Shown: piece by piece, positions 21,947 to 58,594 of the stretch
How positions within the stretch are numbered: position 1 is the first letter of the stretch
Layout: every line of letters starts with the position of its first letter
NCBI RefSeq assembly: GCF_027924665.1
Contig: NZ_AP027043.1
Span: 1,488,001-1,552,000, forward strand
Direction of reading: 5' to 3'
DNA: 64,000 nucleotides
DNA from: Flavobacterium sp. GSB-24
Lineage (GTDB): Bacteria; Bacteroidota; Bacteroidia; Flavobacteriales; Flavobacteriaceae
Position numbers and translations under genes: made by a program
Notes under the pieces: generated by a model
Database searches by the model: none
The model's input: the letters and a program-made list of their open reading frames with translations, nothing else
Told to the model about the DNA's origin: nothing

Positions 21947-22010
21947 AATAATTTATTAAATTAACATTAAGCGAGGAAAAAGTAATTGCTGAAAGTGCTA
22001 AAGGAGAGTT

Positions 22011-22110
22011 CCTGCTTTAGCATTTTTTACTACTGAAATCTATCTTTCAGTATTCATAACGAACCATTTCATTATGAAGAGGTTGCAATCAGTTCAAATT
22101 TTTCCTCTGT
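22011..22110 (-). promoter_or_regulatory. SAM-II-like riboswitch upstream of metK
   Basis: Read on the minus strand from 22110: AGAGG, then AAAAATTTGAACTGATTGCAA, cited here only as TTTGAACTGATTGCAA, then CCTCT closing a first stem. Two small hairpins follow (CATAA/TTATG and ACTGAAA/TTTCAGT), then AAAAAATGCTAAAGCAGG. The order (P1, UUUGA-CYG-AUUGC loop, P1', A-rich strand, GCUAAAGCRG) matches my recollection of the SAM-II consensus, with CTG/CAG available for the pseudoknot. The insertion between P1' and GCTAAA is longer than in alpha-proteobacterial examples. Identified from memory of the consensus; a covariance search would decide. Confidence 0.55.
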
Positions 22111-22119
22111 ATTCGGGTG

Positions 22120-22220: not shown

Positions 22221-22293
22221 AAATTATTTTGGTTTTTGTTTGGTCGATTAAAAAATAGTTCGCACATTTGCTTCGTTAAAATAACAGAAAGAA

Positions 22294-22362
22294 ATGAAAT
22301 TTACAATTTGCAATATGATGTCTTGTAAGATGCCGGAGTTATCCGCAGAGACTCTATTGTAG
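22294..22362 (+). CDS. Met/Cys-rich leader peptide 1
   Basis: The 23-residue ORF reads MKFTICNMMSCKMPELSAETLL in order, with one further Leu split out here for length limits not needed; it ends TTG-TAG. Four Met and two Cys fall within the first 13 residues (M1, C6, M8, M9, C11, M13). An intrinsic terminator follows 24 nt after the stop and the TonB receptor gene 116 nt after. Its 3' part (22345-22357) can pair with the terminator's 5' side. Short length, clustered Met/Cys codons and position indicate an attenuator leader peptide rather than a functional protein. Translation is inferred. Confidence 0.65.
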   Translation: MKFTICNMMSCKMPELSAETLL

Positions 22363-22415
22363 TTTTTTTTCAACAACATATATAGAACCTCTGCAGACCG
22401 CAGAGGTTTTTTTTG
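22345..22415 (+). terminator. Attenuator 1: terminator with competing antiterminator
   Basis: The terminator stem AACCTCTGC/GCAGAGGTT (22386-22394 with 22400-22408) is followed by eight T. The leader segment GCAGAGACTCTAT (22345-22357) can instead pair with ATAGAACCTCTGC (22382-22394): six pairs, a 2x2 internal loop, then five pairs. The two folds are mutually exclusive. A ribosome paused at the Met/Cys codons (22309-22332) would leave 22345 onward free and favour read-through into the TonB receptor gene. Confidence 0.7.
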
Positions 22416-22478
22416 TTCAAAAAAGAAAGCTGTAAGATTTTTTTTAAGCCAAAAACAACTAATTAATCAGTTAAAAAA

Positions 22479-25325
22479 ATGAAAAAAAATGTACTAATCG
22501 TTTTAGGTCTTTTTACATTTTCAGGTATTTATGCTCAGGACAATAAAAAAGAGCAGGATACTTTAAAGAGTAATGAATTAACAGAAGTAACAGTTATTGG
22601 ATCTAGAAGTAAAAACAGAGTAAAAACAGATGTGCCGGTTCCGGTTGATGTTTTTAACGTGGGCGAAATAACAAAAGGTGCGCCGCAAACCAGCGTAACT
22701 CAAATATTAAACTATGTTGCGCCTTCGTTTACAAGTAACGCAACATCAACAGCAGATGCAACAGATCACGTTGATCCAGCGCAATTAAGAGGATTAGGAC
22801 CAGATCAGGTTTTAATTTTAGTAAACGGAAAAAGAAGACACACAAGTGCTTTAGTTAATATAAACGGATCGCCAGGAAGAGGTTCTGTTGGAACAGATTT
22901 AAATGCGATTCCGTCTTTTGCAATAGAAAGAATTGAAGTTTTAAGAGATGGAGCTGCGGCTCAATACGGTTCTGATGCAATTGCCGGAGTAATTAATATT
23001 GTATTAAAAAAGAACGCTGACTTTCTTACTGGAGGAATTCAATACGGAACTAATTTGTCATCTGGATCTAATAATTTCGAAGGAGGAGCAGACGGGCAAA
23101 CTGTTCAAGTCGATTTAAATTACGGAACTTCATTAGGAAAACCTGGAAGTTTCTTCAATATTACAGGAACTGCCGTTACAAGACAAGCAACAAGCAGAGC
23201 AGGAATTAGAAACAACGGTATTTTTAATGCCTATAATGCTGTTGAAAATAGAGCAGCACAAAATGGAGTTGAAATAAATTCATTATTCAGCAACATTAAT
23301 ACGACTGGAAACTCGGCACAAATTATTAGTTCATTACAACAATATGCGCCTCAAGTGAGCTATTTTACAGCAGCACAGCAAACTGCAATCGCATCTGCAA
23401 CAACAATTGCGCAAATGCAGACAGCTTTGAATTTTGATGTTACTAATAATGAATTAGCCTACAGAGGACAGCAAAGAAGTGACTATAATATGAGTGTTGG
23501 CCAGTCAGAACTTGCTTCTGGTCAGGCATTTTATAATGCAAAATATCCTTTATCTGAAAGTACTTCTTTGTACTCTTTTGGTGGAGTGTCGTATAGAAAT
23601 GGAAAATCGTATGCGTTTAACAGACTTCCAAATGGTTCTGGAACTTTTACGCAAGTGTATCAAAATGGATTTTTGCCAGAAATAGAATCAGATATATTAG
23701 ATGCTTCTGCAGCGGTTGGCGTAAACACAGAATTATTTGGTTTTGATACCGATTTAAGTACAAACCTTGGAACAAACTCATTTAAATATGATGTAAACAA
23801 TACTATTAATGCAACTCTTGGAACAAATTCTCCTTTTAGTTTCGATGCCGGTAAAGTTTCGTTTTTACAAAGTACAACCAATTTAGACTTTAGTAAAAAA
23901 TACGATGTTCTTTCAGGATTAAACGTTGCTTTTGGCGGGGAATTCAGATATGAAAATTACCAAATTAAACAAGGAGATGAAGCTTCTTACGGCTTATATG
24001 ATGTAAACGGAAATTTAGTAACGGGAATTTTACCAAGCACTTCTCCTTTAATAGTTACTGATTTCTTTGGAAACAAACGTGGAGCAGGAGCGCAGGGATT
24101 TTCAGGTTTCCAGCCTTCGGATGCTAAAGAAAGAGATAGAAAAAGTGGTGCAGGATATATTGATTTAGAATTGAATGCAACAGAAAAATGGCTCGTAAAT
24201 GGAGCTGCACGTTATGAAAATTATTCAGATTTTGGAAGTACAGTTACTTTTAAACTAGCCTCTCTTTTAAAATTGACAGATAATATTAATTGGAGAATTT
24301 CTGGACAAACAGGTTTTAGAGCGCCTTCATTACAGCAAAAGTATTTTGAAGCAAGTTCAACACAATTCATCAATGGTTCGCCATATCAAGTAGGTTATTT
24401 TACAAACGATTCGCAGGCAGCCAAAAGTATTGGTGTAGAAAACCTAAAGCCAGAGAAATCAAAAAGCATCAGTACAGGATTTACATTTAAAATTCCTGAA
24501 GCTAACATAACCATTGCTACTGATGCTTATTTTACAAGAATCAATGATCGCGTTGTATTGTCGGGACAATATGCAAGACCAACAGATGCGCAAATTGCTG
24601 CCGCTACATCTCCAACGCAGGCAGAAGCGTTGACATTGTTCCAACAGGCATTTGATTTGAAAGGTGTAGAAAGAGCTTCGTTCTGGACAAACGGAATCGA
24701 CTCTGAAACTAAAGGAATTGATTTGGTAATATCTCAAAAATATGATGTTATTCAGGATTTCGTAATCAGAAATGATTTTGCTTTGAGTTACAATGAAACC
24801 AAAAGAGTTGGAGATTTACACATTCCGCAATCAATAATTGATGCAGGAGGAGATCCATATATTTATTCTTTCTTTCCAGAATCAAGCCGAATTTATTTAG
24901 AAGAAGCCATTCCGAAATTAAAAGCAAACCTGATGACAACTTTTAGCATCAAAAAACTAGATATTTATTTAAGAAACAGCTACTTCGGAAAAGTTACAGA
25001 TCCAGGAGCAACAGATGTGAATCTTGACGGATCAGCTTCTGTATACGAGCATCCAGAATACAGTGCAAAATTAGTAACAGATTTATCTTTCGGATATCAG
25101 ATTAACGAACATTTTAGAGCGACTGTTGGATTTAATAATATAGGAGACGTTTATCCAGATAGAAACAATCCGGCAACTCCAGCTTTTACAAATACAACTC
25201 CAACTTTATCTCCAGCGCCAAGTACAGACTTGACCAATGCAAATCAGTTTGCTTATTCAAGAGCAGTTTCTCAATTTGGATTGAACGGAAGATTTGGTTT
25301 TGCACGTTTAAGCTTTAAATTTTAA
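22479..25325 (+). CDS. TonB-dependent receptor under a Met/Cys-type attenuator
   Basis: This 948-residue outer-membrane transporter has a signal peptide (MKKNVLIVLGLFTFSGIYAQ), a TonB-box-like segment (LTEVTVIGSRSKNR), and a plug domain (VPVPVDVFNVGEI, QLRGLGPDQVLILVNGKRRH, AIERIEVLRDGAAAQYGSDAIAGVINIVLK). A 22-strand-type barrel follows, ending in the aromatic FARLSFKF. It is not of the SusC type, since no N-terminal carboxypeptidase-like domain is present. The substrate is not shown by sequence. Its leader peptide, terminator and the sulfur-amino-acid genes on both sides suggest a sulfur- or methionine-related compound or cobalamin; this is inference. Confidence 0.93.
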   Translation: MKKNVLIVLGLFTFSGIYAQDNKKEQDTLKSNELTEVTVIGSRSKNRVKTDVPVPVDVFNVGEITKGAPQTSVTQILNYVAPSFTSNATSTADATDHVDPAQLRGLGPDQVLILVNGKRRHTSALVNINGSPGRGSVGTDLNAIPSFAIERIEVLRDGAAAQYGSDAIAGVINIVLKKNADFLTGGIQYGTNLSSGSNNFEGGADGQTVQVDLNYGTSLGKPGSFFNITGTAVTRQATSRAGIRNNGIFNAYNAVENRAAQNGVEINSLFSNINTTGNSAQIISSLQQYAPQVSYFTAAQQTAIASATTIAQMQTALNFDVTNNELAYRGQQRSDYNMSVGQSELASGQAFYNAKYPLSESTSLYSFGGVSYRNGKSYAFNRLPNGSGTFTQVYQNGFLPEIESDILDASAAVGVNTELFGFDTDLSTNLGTNSFKYDVNNTINATLGTNSPFSFDAGKVSFLQSTTNLDFSKKYDVLSGLNVAFGGEFRYENYQIKQGDEASYGLYDVNGNLVTGILPSTSPLIVTDFFGNKRGAGAQGFSGFQPSDAKERDRKSGAGYIDLELNATEKWLVNGAARYENYSDFGSTVTFKLASLLKLTDNINWRISGQTGFRAPSLQQKYFEASSTQFINGSPYQVGYFTNDSQAAKSIGVENLKPEKSKSISTGFTFKIPEANITIATDAYFTRINDRVVLSGQYARPTDAQIAAATSPTQAEALTLFQQAFDLKGVERASFWTNGIDSETKGIDLVISQKYDVIQDFVIRNDFALSYNETKRVGDLHIPQSIIDAGGDPYIYSFFPESSRIYLEEAIPKLKANLMTTFSIKKLDIYLRNSYFGKVTDPGATDVNLDGSASVYEHPEYSAKLVTDLSFGYQINEHFRATVGFNNIGDVYPDRNNPATPAFTNTTPTLSPAPSTDLTNANQFAYSRAVSQFGLNGRFGFARLSFKF

Positions 25326-25340
25326 GAATTCAGAATTTAT

Positions 25341-25399
25341 GCCGCAGATTAATCAAATTAAAAGGTTTGTTTAATCATTTTAATTCTCTAATCTGTGGC
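25341..25399. repeat. AATCTGTGGC-family inverted repeat after the TonB receptor
   Basis: GCCGCAGATTA (25341-25351) pairs with TAATCTGTGGC (25389-25399), with AT-rich sequence between. Related copies lie at 53728-53788 and 61679-61845. It may end the TonB receptor transcript. Confidence 0.6.
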
Positions 25400-25479
25400 T
25401 AAATTGGAGACATTTTCTAGAATAATTGTATATATAATAAGTGATTATAAAAATTTAATAATAAAAATCGAATTTTAAT

Positions 25480-25509
25480 TTGGTAGTTAAAAAAATATTA
25501 CTACATTTA
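25480..25509 (+). promoter_or_regulatory. Promoter of the metY leader
   Basis: TTG at 25480-25482, 19 nt, then TACATTTA at 25502-25509, one base from TAnnTTTG. It lies 45 nt before leader ORF 2 and overlaps a candidate operator on its downstream side. Confidence 0.5.
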
Positions 25510-25523
25510 CTCTATCGAATTAG
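25507..25523. promoter_or_regulatory. Candidate operator, copy 2
   Basis: TTACTCTATCGAATTAG matches 13 of 17 positions of TTACCCTATCGGGTTAA, the reverse complement of the site at 37322-37342. It overlaps the -7 element and probable start site of the metY leader, a position suited to repression. Confidence 0.45.
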
Positions 25524-25553
25524 TCGAATTAAAAAAACAAGCCAATTTAAAAA

Positions 25554-25634
25554 ATGAAAGCAATAGCAAGAAGAAATATGATGTGTTGTGGAATGATGCA
25601 AATGTGCATCCCGACTTGCTGTTGCCAAAAGTGA
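25554..25634 (+). CDS. Met/Cys-rich leader peptide 2 (metY)
   Basis: This 26-residue ORF begins MKAIARRNMMCCGMMQ and ends MCIPTCCCQK. Six of 26 residues are Met and six are Cys, including CC and CCC runs, an extreme composition for a 26-codon frame. Its last codons (25621-25631) can pair with the terminator's 5' arm. It precedes a small ORF and metY, whose products make homocysteine. The composition and placement match leader peptides that sense charged tRNA; mycobacterial polycysteine upstream ORFs are a known parallel. Product stability or function is not implied. Confidence 0.75.
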   Translation: MKAIARRNMMCCGMMQMCIPTCCCQK

Positions 25635-25701
25635 AAGATAAAATCTTTGTTATAGTTAGAACTATAAGCCCTTTTGGTAGCCATCCGAAAGGGCTTTTTT
25701 C
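25621..25701 (+). terminator. Attenuator 2: terminator with competing antiterminator
   Basis: Terminator AAGCCCTTTTGG/CCGAAAGGGCTT (25666-25677 with 25685-25696, one G-U) is followed by T. The leader end GTTGCCAAAAG (25621-25631) can pair over 11 contiguous positions, two of them G-U, with CTTTTGGTAGC (25671-25681), which contains the terminator's 5' arm. A ribosome stalled at the first Cys pair (25584-25589) leaves this segment free; one reaching the stop codon covers it. Confidence 0.75.
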
Positions 25702-25726
25702 ATTTCAACATTTTAAATTTTAAATC

Positions 25727-25921
25727 ATGAATACACTAGATATAAATACAATTGCATTTCAATACTTATTGAGAACAGATTCTCAAAAAAATAATAATAA
25801 AGTTGAAGAAACAACGAGTGATACTTTAAAGTATAACCCGGAACAATATTTAAAAACTCACAAATCAGTACTGTTTCACATGTACGCACTTGAAGAAGAA
25901 GGAGAAGATTTTTTTATTTAA
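25727..25921 (+). CDS. Small protein of unknown function, attenuator-linked family member A
   Basis: The 64-residue product begins MNTLDINTIAFQYLL, has a polar middle with KNNNK, and ends SVLFHMYALEEEGEDFFI. Its ends resemble those of the 67-residue product at 29232 (MSTLNYLAKTI..., SLLFLMYSKENETLFI): M-[NS]-T-L at the start and S-[VL]-L-F-x-M-Y plus an acidic stretch closing in F-I. No known domain, signal peptide or membrane span is seen. It lies 27 nt after an attenuator terminator and 61 nt before metY, so it is the first gene of that unit. A role in sulfur amino acid metabolism is inferred from position only. Confidence 0.65.
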   Translation: MNTLDINTIAFQYLLRTDSQKNNNKVEETTSDTLKYNPEQYLKTHKSVLFHMYALEEEGEDFFI

Positions 25922-25982
25922 GTCATTTCAAAACTTAATTACAATATAAACGTATAACAATACCTAAAAAAACTAAGAAATC

Positions 25983-27287
25983 ATGAGTACACAAAAATTT
26001 GCAACAAACGCATTACACGCAGGACACGATGTTACTAAAAACGGAAGCACAAGAGCAGTGCCAATTTACCAGACATCATCGTATGTATTTAACAATTCAG
26101 ATCACGCTGCCAATTTATTTGGTCTTGCCGAAGCTGGATTTATTTATACAAGATTAAATAATCCGACAAACGACGTTTTAGAACAGCGTCTGGCAGCACT
26201 TGAAGGCGGAATCGGAGCGGTAGTAACAGCATCTGGAGCATCGGCAATTTCTACAACATTATTGACTTTGCTAAAAGCTGGAGATCATATAGTAGCATCA
26301 AACAGTTTATATGGAGGAACTTATAATCTGCTGAAAGTTACATTACCAAGATTAGGAATTACAACAACATTTGTAGATCCTTCAAAACCAGAAAATTTTA
26401 CCAAAGCGGCAAAAGAAAATACAAGAGCTTTTTTTGTTGAATCTCTGGGAAATCCAAAATTAGATGTTTTAGATTTAAAAGGAATTTCGGCAGAAGCCAA
26501 AGCATTTAAAGTGCCATTTATAGTAGACAATACAGTTGCGACACCTTACTTATTGAACCCAATTAAATATGGTGCCGATATTGTAATTCACTCCTTAACT
26601 AAATATATCGCTGGAAACGGAACTTCTTTAGGAGGCGTTATCATTGATGCTGGAAATTTTGACTGGGCAAACGGAAAATTCCCTGAATTTACCGAACCGT
26701 CTGCAGGTTACCACGGATTAGTATATCACGAAGCTTTAGGAAATGCGGCTTTTATTGCAAAAGCGCGAATTGAAGGACTGCGTGATTTTGGTTCTGCTTT
26801 GAGTCCATTTAATGCTTTTCAGATTATTCAAGGATTAGAAACACTTCCAATCCGAATCAAGAAACATAGTGAGAATGCTTTGGCTTTGGCCGAATGGTTA
26901 GAGAAACAAGATGAGGTCGTGTGGGTAAATTATCCAGGTTTAAAATCGAATAAATATTACGATTTAGCCCAAGAATATTTGCCACAAGGCCAAAGCGGAA
27001 TCATTACTTTTGGATTAAAAGGTGGTTTTGATGCTGCTAAAAAAGTTGTAGATAATACAAAATTATTCTCTTTACTAGCCAATATTGGCGACACTAAATC
27101 GCTGATTATTCACCCGGCAAGTACCACACATCAGCAGTTAACAGATGAAGAACAAATCGAAACAGGAGTTTCAAAAGATTTGGTTCGTCTGTCTGTGGGA
27201 ATTGAAGATATTGAAGATTTAATTGCAGATCTGCAAACTGTTTTTGAGAGTGTTTCGCTATCACAATACAGTATTAATAAAAATTAG
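25983..27287 (+). CDS. metY: O-acetylhomoserine sulfhydrylase (aminocarboxypropyltransferase)
   Basis: This 434-residue PLP enzyme of the Cys/Met metabolism family forms homocysteine directly from O-acetylhomoserine and sulfide. Seen: TNALHAGHD, the YTRLNNPTNDVLEQRLAALEGG motif, ASGASAI, VDNTVATPYLLNP and the PLP lysine in HSLTKYIAGNGTSLGG (about residue 207). The IAGNGTSLGG form and the length above 420 residues separate MetY from MetB/MetZ. It sits behind an attenuator and a small ORF. The following spacer has a long inverted repeat. Confidence 0.93.
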   Translation: MSTQKFATNALHAGHDVTKNGSTRAVPIYQTSSYVFNNSDHAANLFGLAEAGFIYTRLNNPTNDVLEQRLAALEGGIGAVVTASGASAISTTLLTLLKAGDHIVASNSLYGGTYNLLKVTLPRLGITTTFVDPSKPENFTKAAKENTRAFFVESLGNPKLDVLDLKGISAEAKAFKVPFIVDNTVATPYLLNPIKYGADIVIHSLTKYIAGNGTSLGGVIIDAGNFDWANGKFPEFTEPSAGYHGLVYHEALGNAAFIAKARIEGLRDFGSALSPFNAFQIIQGLETLPIRIKKHSENALALAEWLEKQDEVVWVNYPGLKSNKYYDLAQEYLPQGQSGIITFGLKGGFDAAKKVVDNTKLFSLLANIGDTKSLIIHPASTTHQQLTDEEQIETGVSKDLVRLSVGIEDIEDLIADLQTVFESVSLSQYSINKN

Positions 27288-27378
27288 GTTTTTTTGTTTT
27301 TTGTTTGAAAGATTGCCTTTAGTGATTGGTTATTGCTAAAGGTAATTTTTTATGAAAAGCATCATTATAAAAATTCAA

Positions 27379-27475
27379 CCATATAAGTGATATAAGTTCA
27401 TTTAGTAAAATGCACCACAGTGCGTCTAGCAATTTAACGCAAAGAAAATTAAATGAACTTATATCACTTATATGG
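27379..27475. repeat. 26-bp perfect inverted repeat between metY and the homoserine dehydrogenase paralogue
   Basis: The arms 27379-27404 and 27450-27475 are exact reverse complements, starting CCATATAAGTGATATAAG, around a 45-nt interior. An over-long upstream reading frame through this repeat (from 27410) is rejected in favour of the start at 27500. It is a MITE-like Flavobacterium spacer repeat in the leader of the next gene. Confidence 0.8.
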
Positions 27476-27499
27476 CTAAAAAACAAAATAGTAGAAATT

Positions 27500-28588
27500 A
27501 TGTCAAAGCTTAAAATAAACATTATCCTTTTTGGAATTGGAAATATCGGAAGTACTTTGATTAATCAGATTATTGAAAGTCAGGACTTTTTTCTTGAAAG
27601 TAAAAACGTAGATTTTCATTTTCCTATTATAACCAATTCTACAGTGGCCTTTTTCGAGAAAGAAGGTGTTGGTTATGCTTGGGAAACCAATTTTAGACAA
27701 TTGGCTGTTCCTTTTAAAGTAGAAGATATTATTGAATTTGCTAAAGAAAATGAATTCGAAAACTTGATTGCTGTAGATGCAACAGCCAGTGATGAATTGG
27801 TGAAACATTATAATACGCTTATCAAAAACGGATTTAATATTGTGGCTGTCAATAAAAAAGCAAACACACTGCCGATAGACTTGTACAAAGAGCTGCGATC
27901 AAATCTTAAAAAGTATGACAAAGAGTTTTTGTATGAAACATCTGTCGATACAGGGATTCCGGTTTTGCAGACTTTAAGAGATTTGTATTATTCGGGAGAA
28001 AAAATCACCAAGATTCGAGGAGTATTTTCAGATAATTTGAGTTACGTGTTTAATAGATTTTCTTCTGAAGATGTTTCGTTTTCATCCGTTTTAAAAGATG
28101 CAAGTCTTTTGGGATTAATGAAATCAACATTCAAGGAAGATTTATCTGGAAACGACACGGCAAGAAAACTTCTAATATTGGCAAGAGAAGTGGGCAAAGA
28201 TTTCAATTTCTCAGATATTCAAATACATCCTTTTATTACAGAAAATCATCTGGAACAAAATGGAGTGCTGAATAAAGAAGCAGTTGACAAATCATTTAAA
28301 ATAGCAAAAATAACACAGTCTGATAACCATGTACTTCGTTATGTGGGCGAATTTGATTTTGAGAAAAATAAGCTGGAAGTCAAATTGATTTCAGAACCTG
28401 CACATTCTGCAATTGGACAATTAAAGGGCTCGGATACCATTTTTGAAATTTATACACAATCTTACGCACAGGTTCCAATTGTAATCCAAAGTGCATCGCC
28501 GTGCAAACAGGCAATTTCGAGAGGAATTATAACCGATATTTTGAAAGTAGCGGAAAGAATTAGAAATAAAGAGGCCGTTTGGTCTTAA
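27500..28588 (+). CDS. Homoserine dehydrogenase paralogue with degenerate active site
   Basis: This 362-residue protein aligns end to end with the C-terminal half of ThrA (30797-33211). It keeps the Rossmann start INIILFGIGNIGSTLINQI, the Lys of AVNKKANT (about residue 119), and D214, D219 and K223 of KEDLSGNDTARK. ThrA's TEPDP is replaced by MKSTF (residues 207-211), so the Glu equivalent to yeast E208, which contacts homoserine, is Lys; SGT is replaced by SDN in GVFSDNLSY. It has no aspartokinase or ACT domain. It may be a pseudoenzyme, a regulator, or act on another substrate. The frame is intact, so it is not a simple pseudogene. Confidence 0.85.
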   Translation: MSKLKINIILFGIGNIGSTLINQIIESQDFFLESKNVDFHFPIITNSTVAFFEKEGVGYAWETNFRQLAVPFKVEDIIEFAKENEFENLIAVDATASDELVKHYNTLIKNGFNIVAVNKKANTLPIDLYKELRSNLKKYDKEFLYETSVDTGIPVLQTLRDLYYSGEKITKIRGVFSDNLSYVFNRFSSEDVSFSSVLKDASLLGLMKSTFKEDLSGNDTARKLLILAREVGKDFNFSDIQIHPFITENHLEQNGVLNKEAVDKSFKIAKITQSDNHVLRYVGEFDFEKNKLEVKLISEPAHSAIGQLKGSDTIFEIYTQSYAQVPIVIQSASPCKQAISRGIITDILKVAERIRNKEAVWS

Positions 28589-28782
28589 AAACTTCGTAGA
28601 AAATAAAAAATATAACTAATGTTCTTTGATAAACTGATTCGTTAAGGAAGTTTAGAAAGCTTTAAAACTGCTTATTGATCAATTTTTTATAGTCTTTTTC
28701 TGTAAATTATTTTTGTAAGATGTTTTTCGACGTAAAAAAATCACTTTTTAACGTATTTTGTAATTAAATTCTTGAATTTTAT

Positions 28783-28813
28783 TTGTTTAATAAAAATAAT
28801 AGTTGCATATTTG
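28783..28813 (+). promoter_or_regulatory. Promoter of the tandem leader region
   Basis: TTG at 28783-28785, 20 nt, then CATATTTG at 28806-28813 (one mismatch to TAnnTTTG). It lies 26 nt before leader ORF 3. The 190 bases upstream, after the stop at 28588, show no other feature. Confidence 0.45.
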
Positions 28814-28839
28814 TTATACCCAAAAACTACTACAATCAA

Positions 28840-28911
28840 ATGAACTTAAAAGTCAACAAAATGTTTTGCGCCATTTCGGTTATAACCGAGGCTGGGTTGT
28901 CTATTGCTTAA
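28840..28911 (+). CDS. Leader peptide 3
   Basis: The 23-residue ORF reads MNLKVNKMFCAISVITEAGL then SIA. It has one internal Met and one Cys, adjacent to each other (M8-F9-C10). It shares NKMF with leader peptide 4 downstream (MNKMFA), suggesting duplication. A strong terminator begins 26 nt after its stop, and segments of the ORF are complementary to that terminator. A longer frame (28803-29000) overlapping it in another phase runs through the terminator and is rejected. Less Met/Cys-rich than leaders 1 and 2, so confidence is lower. Confidence 0.5.
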   Translation: MNLKVNKMFCAISVITEAGLSIA

Positions 28912-28970
28912 AAAATTGTAAGAATACAATATATAGTAAAGCCTCCCAAAACATATTGGGAGGCTTTTTA
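28861..28970 (+). terminator. Attenuator 3: terminator with competing pairings
   Basis: The 12-bp stem AAAGCCTCCCAA/TTGGGAGGCTTT (28938-28949 with 28957-28968) ends in T. Leader GAGGCT (28888-28893) is complementary to AGCCTC (28940-28945). Leader ATGTTTTG (28861-28868) is complementary to CAAAACAT (28947-28954). Both can form together, looping out a CGGTTATAACCG hairpin. Confidence 0.65.
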
Positions 28971-29019
28971 ATTTTACACAAAAATGCAGAATTTAAATAA
29001 AATACAATATAAATCACAG

Positions 29020-29085
29020 ATGAATAAATCCTTACAGATGAACAAGATGTTTGCTGTCGCGCTTATTTGCGTGAACGTCTGTTGA
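29020..29085 (+). CDS. Leader peptide 4
   Basis: The 21-residue ORF reads MNKSLQMNKMFAVALICVN then VC, with Met at 1, 7 and 10 and Cys at 17 and 21, the last residue. An internal ATG at 29038 is an alternative start. The stop codon overlaps an 11-nt segment complementary to the following terminator. It lies 50 nt after attenuator 3, giving two attenuators in series before the small ORF at 29232. Confidence 0.6.
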   Translation: MNKSLQMNKMFAVALICVNVC

Positions 29086-29154
29086 TACTAAAAGAATAAA
29101 TGAGTTTAAAAAACTTAACCCTTTTGGTATCTGAAATTCCAAAAGGGTTTTTTT
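29084..29154 (+). terminator. Attenuator 4: terminator with competing antiterminator
   Basis: The perfect stem AACCCTTTTGG/CCAAAAGGGTT (29117-29127 with 29139-29149) is followed by T. GATACTAAAAG (29084-29094), overlapping the leader stop codon, can pair over 11 positions (one G-U) with CTTTTGGTATC (29121-29131). A ribosome at the stop codon would cover it; one stalled earlier would leave it free. The terminator arm is nearly the same as in attenuator 2. Confidence 0.75.
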
Positions 29155-29231
29155 ATTCCTGAAAGCGATTTAACATAAACATAAAAAAGAAATAAAGATT
29201 ATAAAACGCAACTAAACTAAAACTTAATATC

Positions 29232-29435
29232 ATGAGCACATTGAACTACTTAGCAAAAACGATTTCTACTTTGAAAAACAAAAGAACGAAAAGAAATAAT
29301 CCGCCGCCGCCAGCAAACGAATTGGCTCACCCAAGGTTCGGAATTACTGAAACGGATAAAAATACCGAAAAAATAACACCAAATTCTTTGTTGTTTTTGA
29401 TGTATTCAAAAGAAAATGAAACGCTTTTTATCTAA
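29232..29435 (+). CDS. Small protein of unknown function, attenuator-linked family member B
   Basis: The 67-residue product begins MSTLNYLAKTISTLKNKRTK, has a PPPPANE stretch in the middle, and ends NSLLFLMYSKENETLFI. The start and end resemble the protein at 25727, which also follows an attenuator. It is basic at the N-terminus and acidic at the C-terminus; no known domain. It lies 77 nt after attenuator 4. A SAM-I riboswitch and metX follow about 190 nt later, so it is probably a separate short transcript or the first gene of a longer one. Confidence 0.6.
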   Translation: MSTLNYLAKTISTLKNKRTKRNNPPPPANELAHPRFGITETDKNTEKITPNSLLFLMYSKENETLFI

Positions 29436-29626
29436 ATTAAAAAGCATCGCAAAATAGGCTTCGGCCTGCTTAATTTTACTGGGCATTTCTGTTCGGTAAA
29501 TTTTTGCGTATAATAGTTTTTGCTGCAATATGTTTATGAAATTTAGCAAACAGTTTCGATAAAATTTGTTTGTTAAAGAAATTAGTAGTTAATTTGCACT
29601 CGTTAAGTTCAAAAAAGTATTGAAAT

Positions 29627-29730
29627 GTTATAAAGAAAGGACGAGGGATTAGACCCGATGAATCCTTAGCAACCCTTCGTTAATTCGAAGAAGGTGCTGC
29701 ATTCTACCACGCCCAACGTGGAAAGATAAC
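29627..29730 (+). promoter_or_regulatory. SAM-I riboswitch (S-box) upstream of metX
   Basis: The P1 stem GTTAT/ATAAC closes the element. Inside are the S-box conserved blocks in order: GAGGGATTAGACCCGATGAA, CTTAGCAACC, an extended P3 hairpin (CTTCG/CGAAG), AAGGTGCTGCATTCTACC and GAAAGATAAC. SAM binding would repress the metX-thrA unit. Directly after it, CTAGT/ACTAG followed by six T (29744-29763) is a weak but plausible terminator platform. Confidence 0.93.
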
Positions 29731-29805
29731 AACAAGAATTTTTCTAGTTTATACTAGTTTTTTCTTTCTAATATTTCCAGATACAAATCAGATAATACAA
29801 CAGAT

Positions 29806-30795
29806 TTGAAATTGGAAAATATACCAAACCCTATTAGCATACAAAATTTCACCACAGAAAATGGTGCGCTTTATCATACACTGCCTTTAAGTTTTACTAT
29901 TGCTGGTCAGCCTTTGCATAGTGCGCCTATTGTTTTGGTAAATCATGCCTTGACAGGAAACGCCCAAGTTACTGGCGAGAATGGCTGGTGGAATAACTTA
30001 ATTGGCGAAGGTAAAACCATTGATACTGCTGTCTATACCATTTTAGCTTTTGATATTCCAGGAAATGGAAGCAATTCTTTCCTAATCGAAAATTATCTAG
30101 ATTTTACTGCCAGAGACATTGCCCGAATTTTTATTGAAGGACTAAAAGATTTAAATATTGAAAAGCTTTATGCTATAATTGGAGGCTCAGTTGGAGGCGG
30201 AATTGCTTGGGAAATCTTAGCTTTAGAACCAAATATCACAGAACATCTTATCCCAATTGCAAGCGATTGGAAATCGACAGACTGGCTTATTGCCAATTGC
30301 TTCCTGCAAGAACAAATTCTCAATAATTCTTCAAAGCCAATCGAAGATGCGAGAATACACGCCATGTTGTGTTATCGTTCGCCAGAATCATTCAAAGAAA
30401 AATTTCAGCGTACCATCAATCAAGATCTTTTGATTTTTAATATCGAAAGCTGGCTGGCGCATCACGGAAAAAAATTGCAGCAAAGATTTCAGTTAGCTTC
30501 TTATAAATTAATGAATCAGCTGCTTAAAACAATTGATATTACTAGAAATAGTGAAAGTTTTGAAAACTTACTGTCACAATCAAATGCATCAATTCATATA
30601 GTAGGAATTAATTCGGATTTGTTTTTTACAGCAAAAGAAAACGTAGAAACCTACGAAGAATTGAAGAAATTTAAAGACAATGTTTTCTACAGCGAAATTG
30701 ATTCGGTTCACGGACATGACGCTTTTTTAATCGAGTACAAACAATTAGATCATTTACTTGCCGACATTTTTAAGGCAGAAACAATAAAAAAATAA
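29806..30795 (+). CDS. metX: Homoserine O-acetyltransferase (MetX-type alpha/beta hydrolase)
   Basis: At 329 residues this is in the MetX acyltransferase family. Seen: the oxyanion segment VLVNHALTGNAQV, the nucleophile in GGSVGGGIAWE (Ser about 128), and the catalytic His in SVHGHDAFL (about 304). The family typically has GGSMGGM and GHDAFL. It would acylate homoserine for MetY/MetZ. It is shorter than the usual 350-380 residues. The only start in frame near the family N-terminus is TTG (29806, or 29812), so the exact start is uncertain. It lies downstream of a SAM-I riboswitch and 1 nt before thrA. Confidence 0.85.
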   Translation: MKLENIPNPISIQNFTTENGALYHTLPLSFTIAGQPLHSAPIVLVNHALTGNAQVTGENGWWNNLIGEGKTIDTAVYTILAFDIPGNGSNSFLIENYLDFTARDIARIFIEGLKDLNIEKLYAIIGGSVGGGIAWEILALEPNITEHLIPIASDWKSTDWLIANCFLQEQILNNSSKPIEDARIHAMLCYRSPESFKEKFQRTINQDLLIFNIESWLAHHGKKLQQRFQLASYKLMNQLLKTIDITRNSESFENLLSQSNASIHIVGINSDLFFTAKENVETYEELKKFKDNVFYSEIDSVHGHDAFLIEYKQLDHLLADIFKAETIKK

Positions 30796-30796
30796 A

Positions 30797-33211
30797 ATGA
30801 AAGTATTAAAATTTGGAGGTAAATCATTAGCAAACGGAGAAGGACTTAACAAAGTTGTTTCAATCATTTCGGATAAAGTAAATCAAGGTGAAAAAATTAC
30901 AGTTGTAGTTTCTGCACGCGGAAACGCAACAGATGAATTAGAATTTATTTTAAGCATTGCTGCTAAAAATGGCAGTTATAAAGAATTATTAGAGAATTTT
31001 AAAAAATATCAAATATCAGATTATCCGCATGTAGATTTTTCGGAAGAATTTAATGTTTTAGATAAACTTTTTGAAGGAGTAAGTCTAATTGGCGATTACA
31101 GTAAAAAAATCAAAGATCAGATTCTATCAAAAGGAGAATTGCTTTCGGCTAAATTATTGACTGCTATTTTAGTGGAAAAAGGAATTCCGGCCAATTTTGT
31201 AGATTCAAGAGAACTGCTGAAAACCGATTCTAAATTTGGTGATGCACAGCCTCTAGAACAGCTTTCAAAGAAAAACGTAGTAAATTATTTTAAAGAACAT
31301 AACGGCGAAACGGTTAATATAGTTACAGGCTTCATTGGTTCCAACAACAACAACGACACAACTACTTTAGGTAGAAACGGCAGTAACTATACCGCTTCGT
31401 TAATCGCTAATTATTTAAATGCCGAAGAACTTCAAAACTTTACACACGTAGACGGAATCTACACGGCAAATCCAGATTTAGTTGCAGATGCTAAAAAAAT
31501 CGAATATTTGTCTTTTAACGAAGCAAATGAGCTGGCTAATTTTGGAGCAACAATTCTGCATGCCAAAACGATAATTCCGTTATTAGAAAAAAATATTCCG
31601 CTTCGTATTTTAAATACTTTCAATCACGAAAACCGCGGAACATTAATTACATCCGATTCTGCCAAAGAAGGAATTAAAACACTTTCTGTTTTAGAAAATG
31701 TTTCTCTTGTGAATTTGGAAGGACGCGGATTACTTGGAAAAGCTGGAGTAGATGCCCGTATTTTTAAGGTAATGGGCGATCATAATATCAGTGTTAGTAT
31801 TATTTCGCAAGGATCTTCAGAAAGAGGAATTGGCTTAGTTGTAGCAACAGATAAAGCGACAACTGCAGTTGTAGAATTAGAAAAAGAATTTGAAAATGAC
31901 TTTTATTCGAAAGACGTAAATCAAATTACAGTTACAGATAATGTATCAGTAATCTCGATTATCGGACAAGATTTAAGTACATTCCATAAACCATATACAG
32001 CCTTAATCAAAAATAAAATTGTTCCGATTTTGTTTAACAACACTGTTACAGGTAAAAACGTGAGTTTGGTTGTTAAAAAAGAAGAATTAAACAAAGCCTT
32101 AAACGTAATTCACGGAGAAATTTTTGGTGTTTCTAAGAAAATAAACATCGCGATTTTTGGCCACGGATTAGTAGGAGGGACTTTAATTAACCAAATCTTA
32201 GAATCGGCTGCAGCAATTGAAAAACGTAAAGATGTTAAGCTGAATGTTTTTGCTATTGCAAACTCAAAAAAGCTGCTTTTAAATAAATATGGTGTAACTG
32301 CAAACTGGAAAAATGAAATTGAAACCAAAGGCGAGGCATATACTATAAAAGATATTATTGCTTACGCAAATGAACATCATTTAGAAAACTTAATTGCGAT
32401 CGATAACACGGCAAGTGCGCCTTTCGTAGAAAACTATATTCCGCTTGTAGAAAGCAGTTTCGATTTGATTTCTTCGAATAAAGTAGCGAATACATTAAGC
32501 TATGGCTTTTATAAAGAATTGAGAAAAGCTTTAACTGAAAACCAAAAGAATTATTTGTATGAAACCAATGTTGGTGCAGGATTACCATTAATTGATACGA
32601 TTAAATTACTGCATCTTTCAGGGGAAAACATCACAAAAATTAAAGGTGTTTTCTCGGGAACATTGAGTTATTTATTCAATAATTTCTCTGCGAAAGATGC
32701 TCCGTTTAGTGAAATCCTGCAGGAAGCAATTGATAACGGATACACAGAGCCAGATCCGCGTGAGGATTTATGCGGCAATGACGTTGGAAGAAAATTATTG
32801 ATTTTGGCTAGAGAATTAGATTTACAAAACGAATTTGAAGAAATCTCTATTCAGAATCTTATTCCAGAGCATTTACGTGAAGGAAGTGCAGCTGATTTCT
32901 TGACGAAATTAAAAGAATTTGATCCGATTTACGCTAAAATAAAAGCAGACCAACAGCCAAATCATGTACTAAGATATATCGGCGAATTGTCTGGCGATTT
33001 ACAAAATGACAAAGGAAATCTAGAAGTTAAATTAGTTTCAGTACTTTCGGATACAGCCTTAGGCGGACTAAAAGGTTCTGATTCTTTCTTTGAAATTTAC
33101 ACAGAATCTTACGGAGATCGCCCAATCGTTATTCAGGGAGCTGGTGCAGGTTCTGCGGTAACGGCAAGAGGAGTATTTGGAGATATTTTGAGATTGTCAG
33201 ATAAAGGGTAA
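30797..33211 (+). CDS. thrA: Bifunctional aspartokinase/homoserine dehydrogenase
   Basis: At 804 residues this carries out the first and third steps from aspartate to homoserine. Domains: aspartokinase (about 1-290; VLKFGGKSLANGEG, where KFGGTS is more usual; TTTLGRNGSNYTA; VDGIYTANPDLV), paired ACT regulatory domains (about 300-445; VSLVNLEGRGLLGKAGVDARIF, cited in part), and homoserine dehydrogenase from about 448 (INIAIFGHGLVGGTL, SNKVANT, GYTEPDPREDLCGNDVGRK). All dehydrogenase catalytic residues are present, unlike the paralogue at 27500. It starts 1 nt after metX, so both are under SAM-I control. Confidence 0.96.
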   Translation: MKVLKFGGKSLANGEGLNKVVSIISDKVNQGEKITVVVSARGNATDELEFILSIAAKNGSYKELLENFKKYQISDYPHVDFSEEFNVLDKLFEGVSLIGDYSKKIKDQILSKGELLSAKLLTAILVEKGIPANFVDSRELLKTDSKFGDAQPLEQLSKKNVVNYFKEHNGETVNIVTGFIGSNNNNDTTTLGRNGSNYTASLIANYLNAEELQNFTHVDGIYTANPDLVADAKKIEYLSFNEANELANFGATILHAKTIIPLLEKNIPLRILNTFNHENRGTLITSDSAKEGIKTLSVLENVSLVNLEGRGLLGKAGVDARIFKVMGDHNISVSIISQGSSERGIGLVVATDKATTAVVELEKEFENDFYSKDVNQITVTDNVSVISIIGQDLSTFHKPYTALIKNKIVPILFNNTVTGKNVSLVVKKEELNKALNVIHGEIFGVSKKINIAIFGHGLVGGTLINQILESAAAIEKRKDVKLNVFAIANSKKLLLNKYGVTANWKNEIETKGEAYTIKDIIAYANEHHLENLIAIDNTASAPFVENYIPLVESSFDLISSNKVANTLSYGFYKELRKALTENQKNYLYETNVGAGLPLIDTIKLLHLSGENITKIKGVFSGTLSYLFNNFSAKDAPFSEILQEAIDNGYTEPDPREDLCGNDVGRKLLILARELDLQNEFEEISIQNLIPEHLREGSAADFLTKLKEFDPIYAKIKADQQPNHVLRYIGELSGDLQNDKGNLEVKLVSVLSDTALGGLKGSDSFFEIYTESYGDRPIVIQGAGAGSAVTARGVFGDILRLSDKG

Positions 33212-35794: not shown

Positions 35795-36205
35795 GTGCTT
35801 TCAAAGAAAACAAAATACGGAATTAAAGCTCTTACATATTTAGCCAGGAGAGAAAATAACGAACCTGTACAAATTGCTGAAATTGCGAAAAGTGAACATA
35901 TTTCGATTAAATTTTTAGAAAGTATTTTATTGCTTTTGAGAAACTCTGGTTTTCTTGGAGCTAAAAAAGGAAAAGGCGGCGGTTACTACCTGATCAAAGA
36001 TCCTAAGGATATTAGCATGGCAAAAGTGTATCGTATTCTAGAAGGGCCGATTGCATTATTACCGTGTGCCAGTCATAATTTCTACGAAAGATGTGATGAC
36101 TGTGATGATGAGTCTACCTGCGCCGCACGTCGTTTAATGACAGAAGTTAGAGATAATACACTTAAAATATTAGAAAGTAATTCTTTAGCAGATATTGCTT
36201 TTTAG
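35795..36205 (+). CDS. Rrf2 family transcriptional regulator
   Basis: This 136-residue regulator starts at GTG (35795); no ATG fits. The N-terminal winged helix is standard (KTKYGIKALTYLARRE, IAEIAKSEHISIKFLESILLLLRNSGFL, KKGKGGGYYL). A Cys cluster near the C-terminus (PCASHNFYERCDDCDDESTC; spacing C-x8-C-x2-C-x5-C) could bind an Fe-S cluster or act as a thiol sensor, as in IscR/NsrR or CymR relatives. It precedes the sulfate assimilation cluster, whose promoter region carries a palindrome. Control of that cluster in response to cysteine or Fe-S state is inferred. Confidence 0.93.
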   Translation: MLSKKTKYGIKALTYLARRENNEPVQIAEIAKSEHISIKFLESILLLLRNSGFLGAKKGKGGGYYLIKDPKDISMAKVYRILEGPIALLPCASHNFYERCDDCDDESTCAARRLMTEVRDNTLKILESNSLADIAF

Positions 36206-46711: not shown

Positions 46712-46734
46712 CACTGTTCTTAAAATTACTGTTA

Positions 46735-46847
46735 GTTATCACGAAAGGCGGAGGGATAGACCCAATGAAACCTTAGCAACCCTTTATCATAAAGAAGGTG
46801 CTAAATTCTACTTTATACGACATTTTCCAGTATTAAAGATAGATAAC
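46735..46847 (+). promoter_or_regulatory. SAM-I riboswitch (S-box) upstream of split metH
   Basis: The P1 stem GTTATC/GATAAC closes the element. Conserved blocks are GGAGGGATAGACCCAATGAA, CCTTAGCAACCC, AAGAAGGTGCTAAATTCTAC and AAAGATAGATAAC. The 5' part aligns with the copy before metX. The expression platform is not obvious; the 300-nt leader that follows contains a repeat element. Confidence 0.93.
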
Positions 46848-46954
46848 ACAAATACATAACTCGTATTTCTCAAACTTTTCCTGACAACTTACAATAATTA
46901 CTGAAACAGATTCTGTATCAGGAGCGAATCATTGGTGCATTTTTGCAGTCAATA

Positions 46955-47027
46955 GTTCCCGCTGTACACAAATATCTTTTATTCTGAACTCCAGAATAAA
47001 AGGATATTTGCTTCCATCGGGGCTAAT
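46955..47027. repeat. Structured Bacteroidetes repeat element, copy 1 (inverted relative to copy 3)
   Basis: The core is TTCCCGCTGTAC, then a 16-bp hairpin AAATATCTTTTATTCT/AGAATAAAAGGATATTT (one bulged G), then GCTTCCATCGGGGCTAA. The reverse complement of 58521-58594 has the same order: TCCCGCT, ATATCTTTTAT hairpin ATAAAAGGATA, CGCTTCTATCGGGGCTAA. The flanks are conserved while the hairpin tip varies. It lies in the metH leader between the SAM-I riboswitch and the start codon. Confidence 0.65.
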
Positions 47028-47152
47028 TAGCATGCAATATTGCACTTTTGGAATTAGTGTGAAAAAAATATCGAAGGTTAAACTTCACAATCATAATAAA
47101 AAAACTTAGCATCTTAGAACCTCAGTATCTTAGAAGCTAAAGAAAAAAAGAT

Positions 47153-58481: not shown

Positions 58482-58520
58482 TTTGAGATTTTTAAACTTT
58501 TGAAAATAAAAAGTTCTGGT

Positions 58521-58594
58521 TTAGCCCCGATAGAAGCGGTATCCTTTTATGGCGGGGTTCGCCATAAAAGATATAGCGGATAGCGGGACTAAAG
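58521..58594. repeat. Structured Bacteroidetes repeat element, copy 3
   Basis: Outer stem TTTAGCCCCG/CGGGACTAAA (near-perfect), then GATAGAAGCGGTAT opposite ATATAGCGGATAGC as an internal region, then an 11-bp hairpin CTTTTATGGCG/CGCCATAAAAG. It has the same order as the reverse complement of 46955-47027. Such clear nested structure with conserved flanks suggests a folded RNA or a mobile repeat. Confidence 0.7.

Follow-up and report, generated by a model that had tools for sequence, protein, structure and literature searches.

Short leader-peptide attenuators are well described in Escherichia coli, where trpL, thrL, pheL and hisL each combine a short open reading frame (ORF) rich in codons for the product of the operon, an antiterminator that overlaps this ORF, and a terminator before the operon. 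In mycobacteria and other Actinobacteria, cys operons are preceded by short polycysteine ORFs (PMC1262725; reportedly also Canestrari 2020, as cited in PMC13236596). Premature terminators and exchanges of T-box for leader peptide have been described (PMC2965389), and attenuators with terminators have been surveyed for His, Leu, Thr, Trp, Ile/Val and Phe (PMC3766115). Actinobacteria have cysteine leaders without conserved terminators and, as far as that account goes, no conserved RNA structure at methionine operons (PMC1262725). Among the Bacteroidota, short ORFs of Bacteroides thetaiotaomicron are reminiscent of leader peptides (PMC7366714), and leader-peptide attenuation has been suggested at amino acid operons of Flavobacterium psychrophilum, with pheA and hisG among the conserved 5' elements (PMC9723704). 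Here we analyze a window of 64,000 nucleotides (nt) from Flavobacterium sp. GSB-24 (contig NZ_AP027043.1, positions 1,488,001 to 1,552,000), which contains four short ORFs with methionine and cysteine codons, L1 to L4, each before an intrinsic terminator and close to genes for sulfur amino acid synthesis. We propose, with a probability of about 0.85, that L1 to L4 are trp-type ribosome-mediated attenuators whose leaders would sense charged methionyl- and cysteinyl-tRNA; we infer translation of the leaders, stalling, termination or read-through and the response to starvation from the sequence. The finding is larger than first stated, in that genome comparison points to a conserved family, often in tandem, before methionine and cysteine genes.

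The leaders have the parts expected of trp-type attenuators, namely an ORF before an intrinsic terminator, clustered Met/Cys codons, and an antiterminator that excludes the terminator and overlaps the end of the ORF. All lie on the forward strand and have 22, 26, 23 and 21 codons without the stop. L1 (22294 to 22362, MKFTICNMMSCKMPELSAETLL) is a class A leader with relatives across the genus; its antiterminator segment (22341 to 22356) pairs, according to RNAduplex, with the 5' arm of a terminator at 22384 to 22417 (stem 22384 to 22410 followed by a T run). L2 (25554 to 25634, MKAIARRNMMCCGMMQMCIPTCCCQK) is a class B leader, whose antiterminator segment GTTGCCAAAAG (25621 to 25631) was identified from the duplex and from the class B alignment and whose terminator occupies 25666 to 25702 (stem 25666 to 25696 and T run). 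The class A leader L3 (28840 to 28911, MNLKVNKMFCAISVITEAGLSIA) has an antiterminator in two segments (28862 to 28869 and 28888 to 28893, from RNAduplex) and a terminator at 28938 to 28969 (hairpin 28938 to 28967). The class B leader L4 (29020 to 29085, MNKSLQMNKMFAVALICVNVC) has a second in-frame ATG upstream, at 28984; its antiterminator segment GATACTAAAAG (29084 to 29094) comes from the duplex and from folding with a masking ribosome, and its terminator (29117 to 29156, stem 29117 to 29149 with one mismatch) is absent from the general terminator listing. The sequence-only reading had placed four such ORFs and terminators here and had given the extent of their complementarity, and both descriptions hold. 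The gaps between ORF and hairpin are 21, 31, 26 and 31 nt, the folding of leader plus terminator beats all 200 dinucleotide shuffles in each case (z of -4.3, -5.7, -3.9 and -5.4), and RNAduplex finds every pairing: 2+6+3 pairs around a 2x2 loop in L1, 11 contiguous pairs in L2, 6 plus about 8 in L3, and 11 contiguous pairs in L4. The Met/Cys codons were said to lie upstream of the pairing segment, which is generally so, except that L2 has its Cys codons 23 and 24 inside the segment, and L4 has its last Cys codon immediately beside it.

The four leaders match the models of their classes: L1 matches the class A model R2 with 6.3e-17 and L2 the class B model R1 with 1.4e-13, each being among the sequences from which its model was built, while L3 matches R2 with 1.1e-4 and L4 matches R1 with 1.2e-12. 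Since L2 and L4 are the only class B matches in their own genome at E <=0.001, and L1 and L3 are the two best class A matches, L1 to L4 look, by these models, like the whole set of this genome. Counting both strands, the window has 55 terminator-like hairpins, of which 15 have an ORF of 12 to 45 codons located 12 to 48 nt upstream; among these 15, at least three internal Met/Cys codons occur only in L1, in L2 and in the long form of L4, with two in L3. Because so few of the hairpins have a Met/Cys ORF upstream, L1 to L4 are not a chance result. The abundance of such hairpins is nevertheless what one would point to if the four structures were ordinary terminators ahead of the genes, or ends that insulate one transcript from the next, preceded by ORFs that arose by chance. 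We consider this extremely improbable, because an element is kept upstream of O-acetylhomoserine sulfhydrylase (OAHS) in 60/61 genus regions (within 800 nt in 59/61), the antiterminator partner is kept as well, an ORF with at least four Met/Cys codons accompanies 134/168 elements and only 3/62 control terminators, and the leaders and the SAM-I riboswitch exclude each other at OAHS loci of related genera, as described below.

The counts for the genus rest on 121 sampled Flavobacterium genomes, 69 of which contain OAHS; regions were taken from 60 of these and from the window itself, giving 61. The leader-terminator units were classed by the 5' arm of the terminator as A1 (CCTCTGC), A2 (GCCTCCC) or B (CCCTTTTGG), and units of these classes are present in 60/61 regions. 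In the comparison across Flavobacterium that the sequence-only reading had called for, the leaders are kept and are rich in Met/Cys codons. Met-rich leaders are also found in the other eight genus genomes with OAHS (8/8), a class A or B leader lies 5' of OAHS in 79 loci of an overlapping set of 80 with named records, F. psychrophilum included, and 83/121 genus genomes match the class A1 model at E <=1e-5. Judged by OAHS identity, Flavobacterium sp. Root935 is the named record nearest to the window, but its L1 and L2 blocks differ from those of the window. Assigning one ORF to each terminator resulted in 171 elements, 168 of them distinct. The ORF with the most Met/Cys codons was chosen for each terminator, a choice that favors the leader reading, and the control terminators were picked alike. 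Under this procedure Met and Cys make up 24.3% of the codons in the 168 elements compared with 3.6% at 62 other terminators of the same regions. In 61 thinned elements they account for 319/1419 codons in frame (22.5%), versus 8.2% and 4.6% in the other two frames, and Met codons are about as frequent as Cys codons. The leader starts are A-rich at positions -3, -6, -12 and -13, and A at such positions is reported to promote initiation in F. johnsoniae (PMC6847099).

The pairing between leader and terminator arm is stronger than expected from composition. Mean duplex energies for real and shuffled leaders are -11.8 and -7.0 for A1, -11.6 and -8.1 for A2, and -11.9 and -7.3 for B. When arms are swapped between classes most combinations are weaker, though leaders of A2 pair with the arm of B as well as with their own. 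In the class A1 alignment (14 sequences) all 84/84 cells of the antiterminator core are paired, compared with at most 52.5% when the alignment is slid; in the class B alignment (36 sequences) 85.5% of the antiterminator cells are paired, compared with at most 64%, and neither the number of paired cells nor the covariation score is reached in any of 500 shuffles or at any slid position. Between genera, arm and antiterminator are altered together, as in CCGCTGC or GCCGCTGC with GCAGCG, GCCTTTGC with GCGAAGGC, GGTAATACC with GGTATTACC, and GGTAATAGC with GCTATTGCC. The compensatory changes for which the sequence-only reading proposed to look are seen across genera; within class B, double changes are no more frequent than in shuffles. 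The TTTGG of the class B arm is invariant in the 36 aligned sequences, and such unusual constancy could point to a factor acting in trans, an RNA-binding protein or a small RNA that reads hairpins such as that of class B, with the leader ORF being incidental. However, the Met/Cys enrichment is specific to one frame, the masking of the antiterminator depends on where the ribosome is, and the arm is swapped together with its partner in the ORF, both in other genera and between A1 and A2. This makes a trans-acting reader of the hairpins very unlikely.

The dependence on the ribosome was assessed by folding only the RNA ahead of the ribosome, up to the loop of the terminator, and computing the probability of the antiterminator. 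With the ribosome at the Met/Cys codons this probability averages 0.73, 0.59 and 0.63 for A1, A2 and B, and with the ribosome at the stop codon it averages 0.05, 0.07 and 0.14. In 163/168 elements the best value is at least 0.5, and less than half of it remains with the ribosome at the stop. The same method gives the same masking profile for trpL, thrL and pheL of E. coli. These profiles, the leaders kept across the genus, the joint changes of arm and antiterminator, and the Cys-Cys runs at cysteine operons described below all support the trp-type logic that the sequence-only reading had suggested. With ample Met and Cys, the ribosome would reach the stop codon and cover the antiterminator at the end of the ORF, and the terminator would form. 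When either is short, the ribosome would stall at the Met/Cys codons, the antiterminator would take the 5' arm of the terminator, and RNA polymerase would read through into the sulfur amino acid genes.

The genes that follow the leaders agree with this proposal. In the genus genomes found with the class A model, leaders located away from this OAHS precede metX-thrA, metH, a gene of the cystathionine lyase/synthase type, and the operon cysH-cysD-cysN-cysE-cysK for sulfate assimilation. A leader is found at 2/30 metH loci (directly upstream in L333, and about 1.5 kb upstream, at the edge of the locus, in L355) and leaders at 7/30 cysH loci (L303-L309); a weak row at the cysH locus L312 was judged spurious. 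Runs of Cys-Cys occur in 14/14 leaders of cysteine operons, 5/26 leaders of methionine operons and, at an intermediate level, 53/103 leaders on the OAHS side; according to the name of their profile model, OAHS-type enzymes can make cysteine too. Cysteine operon leaders have 3.36 Cys each versus 2.19 in methionine operons (p = 0.0017), although the p-values of the operon comparison are only indicative, because related leaders were compared and the data were already known when the Cys-run comparison was picked. In 5/5 genomes that have both kinds of operon, the leaders of the cysteine operon have the higher Cys share. The comparison includes the first leaders of loci L286 and L293, as well as L294 and L355, and leaves unclassed two Cys-Cys leaders that precede a gene of no known family.

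A different explanation for these peptides is that they are real products, binding metal (copper) or sensing redox state, so that the input would be metal or redox, read through folding of the peptide or arrest of the ribosome, and not amino acid supply. MMCCxMM and CCC are typical metal ligands, the leaders contain such ligand-like motifs, and sequences like MKxIAxxNMMCCxMMQMCIPxCCCQK are recognisable across species. Yet the downstream genes that could be identified serve sulfur amino acid synthesis (OAHS, metX-thrA, metH, the cystathionine lyase type gene and cysH-cysD-cysN-cysE-cysK), with the exception of a TonB receptor, small ORFs and a gene for a protein of 150-157 aa of no known family. 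The Cys runs gather at cysteine operons, the ratio of nonsynonymous to synonymous change (pN/pS) in the leaders is 0.65-1.02, and some A2 leaders have a single internal Met and a single Cys. A functional metal or redox peptide is thus quite unlikely, and attenuation by tRNA charging remains the reading we prefer. One further observation at a class A match (5.6e-13, locus L295, G062:C107) is an 835-aa protein downstream, which by eye resembles the large subunit of a nitrite or sulfite reductase; the leader filter reported no leader there.

Several results weigh against attenuation by tRNA charging. The energy of the real duplex is reached by no more than 5 of 100 shuffles in 35/47 A1, 47/85 B and only 16/36 A2 elements, so that the pairing is weakest for A2, and on average an A2 leader holds only around 1.1 Met and 1.4 Cys. 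The values observed in the A1 alignment are reached in 76/500 shuffles, which happens because the A1 arms hardly vary, and the class B alignment has three double-changed pairs compared with 3.8 in column shuffles, hence no excess. The folding method failed for E. coli hisL (0.64 stalled versus 0.63 at the stop). When no ribosome is present, folding energies still give the antiterminator a predicted probability of 0.53-0.69 (mean 0.63, 167 elements), falling below half of the stalled value in only 21/167 elements, unlike textbook superattenuation and unlike trpL (0.06), pheL (0.16) and thrL (0.32). If real, this would mean that the leaders lack superattenuation and that little termination is to be expected without translation; a missing superattenuation would suit a methionine sensor, because methionine starvation also lowers initiation. 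The pN/pS values given above indicate that the peptides themselves are weakly constrained, which fits leader peptides and is no proof of translation. When compared per operon (8 cys versus 16 met), the Cys share does not differ significantly (p = 0.11), some leaders on the metH side are Cys-rich, and the limit already placed on the operon p-values belongs here too. Finally, the leader scan finds no leader at OAHS in one genus genome, G113.

The two classes are arranged in a fixed order. Wherever successive elements are less than 250 nt apart, A precedes B (54/54, comprising 33 A2-B and 21 A1-B pairs). A1 and B are adjacent in 21 genus regions and far apart in 19, and many of the latter have a long ORF of the size of a TonB receptor gene in between. 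The window contains both arrangements: L3 and L4 form an A-B tandem, and in the A/B pair of L1 and L2 a TonB receptor gene parts the two elements. The sequence-only reading had seen attenuation logic repeated four times in 7 kb; all four elements are real, but they make up two A/B pairs and not four copies. The promoter-like score averages 7.55 in first elements (n=60), 7.39 in far-separated elements (n=57) and 5.81 in adjacent downstream elements (n=54), compared with 5.89 in random controls. Because the adjacent downstream elements score like controls, tandem elements are probably on one transcript, and L3 and L4 probably share one. Promoter-like elements of the -33/-7 type of Bacteroidetes, consisting of TTTG and a downstream box, precede L1 (22239 to 22270, TTTG at 22239-22242 and CACATTTG at 22263-22270), L2 (25479 to 25509, TTTG at 25479-25482 and TACATTTA at 25502-25509) and L3 (28782 to 28813, TTTG at 28782-28785 and CATATTTG at 28806-28813), all on the forward strand; the one of L3 was recognized by eye, and the scoring chose another site. 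With A and B in series, as in L3-L4, a full-length transcript would need two antitermination events, and the split pair L1/L2 would control the TonB receptor gene and OAHS. Two other loci, L286 and L293, have three leaders each, with a class B leader, a gene whose product (about 150-157 aa) belongs to no known family, and an A-B pair before metX.

At OAHS the leaders occupy the place of a riboswitch. The SAM-I riboswitch (S box, RF00162) senses S-adenosylmethionine (SAM) directly through its aptamer, and it is located upstream of the same gene at 62/70 OAHS loci from other Flavobacteriaceae. These 62 loci have SAM-I only, seven have a leader only, none has both, and one, at a contig edge, has neither. 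A looser filter (two internal Met/Cys codons, within 700 nt) leaves the outcome unchanged (7/7 and 0/63). A leader-like match at L189, which lies 1144 nt upstream and has SAM-I present, was regarded as spurious because of its position and not counted. Within Flavobacterium SAM-I is found 5' of OAHS in 0/20 loci searched with Rfam and in 0/68 regions searched with our own model of 19 SAM-I sequences, and 50 of these 68 regions do contain SAM-I, downstream of OAHS. The Met/Cys leaders do not match the SAM-I model, L1 to L4 have no Rfam match to SAM-I or SAM-II, the riboswitch matches of the window lying elsewhere, and no T-box is found in the window at the gathering threshold. The class B model matched 93/249 genomes of the family, and we followed 30 loci (from 28 genomes besides G000 and G060). 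Matches were counted as elements only where a Met/Cys ORF was present; the many weak matches (E 1e-5 to 1e-3), among which one hairpin often matched in either orientation, were taken as ordinary terminators. At the loci outside the genus where this model found leaders (L093-L095, L097-L099, L103, L115 and L118) there is no SAM-I upstream of OAHS; three of the genomes behind this set are also among the 70 family loci. On an OAHS tree built by a quick method from 53 rows, the two states, leader and SAM-I, require a minimum of 8 changes, three of them forced by starred branches for leader rows from outside the genus, and this count is rough because it relies on a gene tree with long branches, on six leader rows that come from the model search, and on L175, which has both a leader and SAM-I, being coded as SAM-I. 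The best reading is that the leaders replace or complement SAM sensing; where a leader is found at OAHS in the place that SAM-I takes in most relatives, the sensed signal would shift from SAM to tRNA charging.

The combination of both sensors is found farther away. Among 40 OAHS loci sampled in the phylum beyond this family, the filter finds a Met/Cys leader with terminator in 19, and 36 have SAM-I within 1.5 kb. In 16 of the 19, a SAM-I riboswitch near OAHS follows on the same strand, 150-205 nt from the leader start; several of these 16 are closely related and have almost the same leader. An example of such a single leader before SAM-I outside Flavobacteriaceae is MKLTNQYIAREMMCMCCYMRTLH (L363-L375 and related loci). 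The other three (L225, L226 and L231) lack SAM-I and have a tandem of two leaders, and the remaining loci comprise 20 with SAM-I only and one with neither. L175, from a separate set, likewise has a leader followed by SAM-I. Six more loci belong to the same taxonomic class but to different families; SAM-I is present in five, and the filter finds a leader in none. That a leader comes first, followed by a second leader or by SAM-I, suggests a module with two slots. Tentatively, and at somewhat less than even odds, we suggest that this module extends across much of the Bacteroidota, with a Met/Cys leader in slot 1, a leader or SAM-I in slot 2, and repeated exchange of sensors; the protector arm of these leaders may have been lost since methionine starvation removes the initiator tRNA, so that read-through would be the default and a completed leader the OFF signal.

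The L1/L2 pair encloses the TonB-dependent receptor gene (22479 to 25325, Pfam PF00593/PF07715), and L2 is followed by a small ORF of 64 aa (25727 to 25921), by OAHS (25983 to 27287, TIGR01326 with 648 bits, cutoff 495) and by a homoserine dehydrogenase-like protein (27500 to 28588, from profile matches). The sequence-only reading had uptake genes under control; this applies to the one TonB receptor gene between A and B and to no more than that. Downstream of the L3-L4 tandem are a small ORF of 67 aa (29232 to 29435), a SAM-I riboswitch (29625 to 29732, RF00162, 75.7 bits) located between the tandem and metX, a MetX-like homoserine acyltransferase (29806 to 30795, under the cutoffs of the MetX models), and a bifunctional aspartate kinase/homoserine dehydrogenase of the ThrA type (30797 to 33211, NF006959 with 744.7 bits, cutoff 726). 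All of these are on the forward strand. The 64-aa and 67-aa ORFs have no Pfam or NCBIfam match; they have alike C-terminal ends, and each is placed after an attenuator and before the following gene. A tblastn search (E 0.01) matched them in 21/61 and 43/61 genus regions, respectively, counts in which cross-matching is possible. A SAM-II riboswitch (RF01726, 47.7 bits, 22007-22113, reverse strand) stands before metK and points away from L1, and SAM-II is near OAHS also in 11/20 genus loci. The window contains a second SAM-I riboswitch (46733-46849, forward strand, 75.2 bits) and matches to the Flavo-1 RNA (RF01705) at 58519-58594 (forward) and 46951-47028 (reverse). A regulator of the Rrf2 family (35795-36205, Pfam PF02082), which matches the model of the cysteine regulator CymR below threshold, is encoded near the sulfur genes and could provide a second layer of control.

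In comparison with the attenuators of E. coli, the codons here are those for Met and Cys, two different attenuators are arranged in series, and no strong protector hairpin is predicted. The actinobacterial and mycobacterial polycysteine ORFs resemble the leaders in their runs of Cys codons before cysteine genes; however, terminators and antiterminators are kept here and Met is as frequent as Cys, which places the leaders outside that class, described as a Cys run close to the stop codon with no conserved terminator (PMC1262725). The mgtCBR leader of Salmonella also has two short ORFs, with a gene and signals that appear to be unrelated (PMC3641672). A close precedent is the suggestion for F. 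psychrophilum, a member of the same genus, in which amino acid operons are likewise preceded by short peptides and by structured 5' regions; the text of that study mentions neither Met/Cys leaders nor tandem pairs nor an exchange with SAM-I, and its supplement may list some (PMC9723704). The sequence-only reading knew of no described Bacteroidetes family of this kind, which needs qualification in view of that suggestion, although the text behind it does not name Met/Cys. Searches within the openly licensed literature, a scope that leaves most subscription papers outside, gave no account of methionine leader-peptide attenuators in Bacteroidota. Within it the class of mechanism is known, and the Met/Cys specificity, the tandem use and the exchange with a riboswitch appear to be new.

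If the leaders function as proposed, they would extend terminator-linked leader attenuation to methionine, together with cysteine, beyond the amino acids that one survey lists (PMC3766115). A leader for methionine poses a puzzle, as starvation blocks both elongation at AUG codons and initiation; the predicted lack of a protector hairpin would be a testable solution. The tandem attenuators would provide an additional test bed in a genus that initiates without Shine-Dalgarno sequences (PMC6847099). The same gene, controlled in some lineages by a riboswitch and in others by a leader that would respond to tRNA charge, offers a natural case in which both signals may be compared directly.

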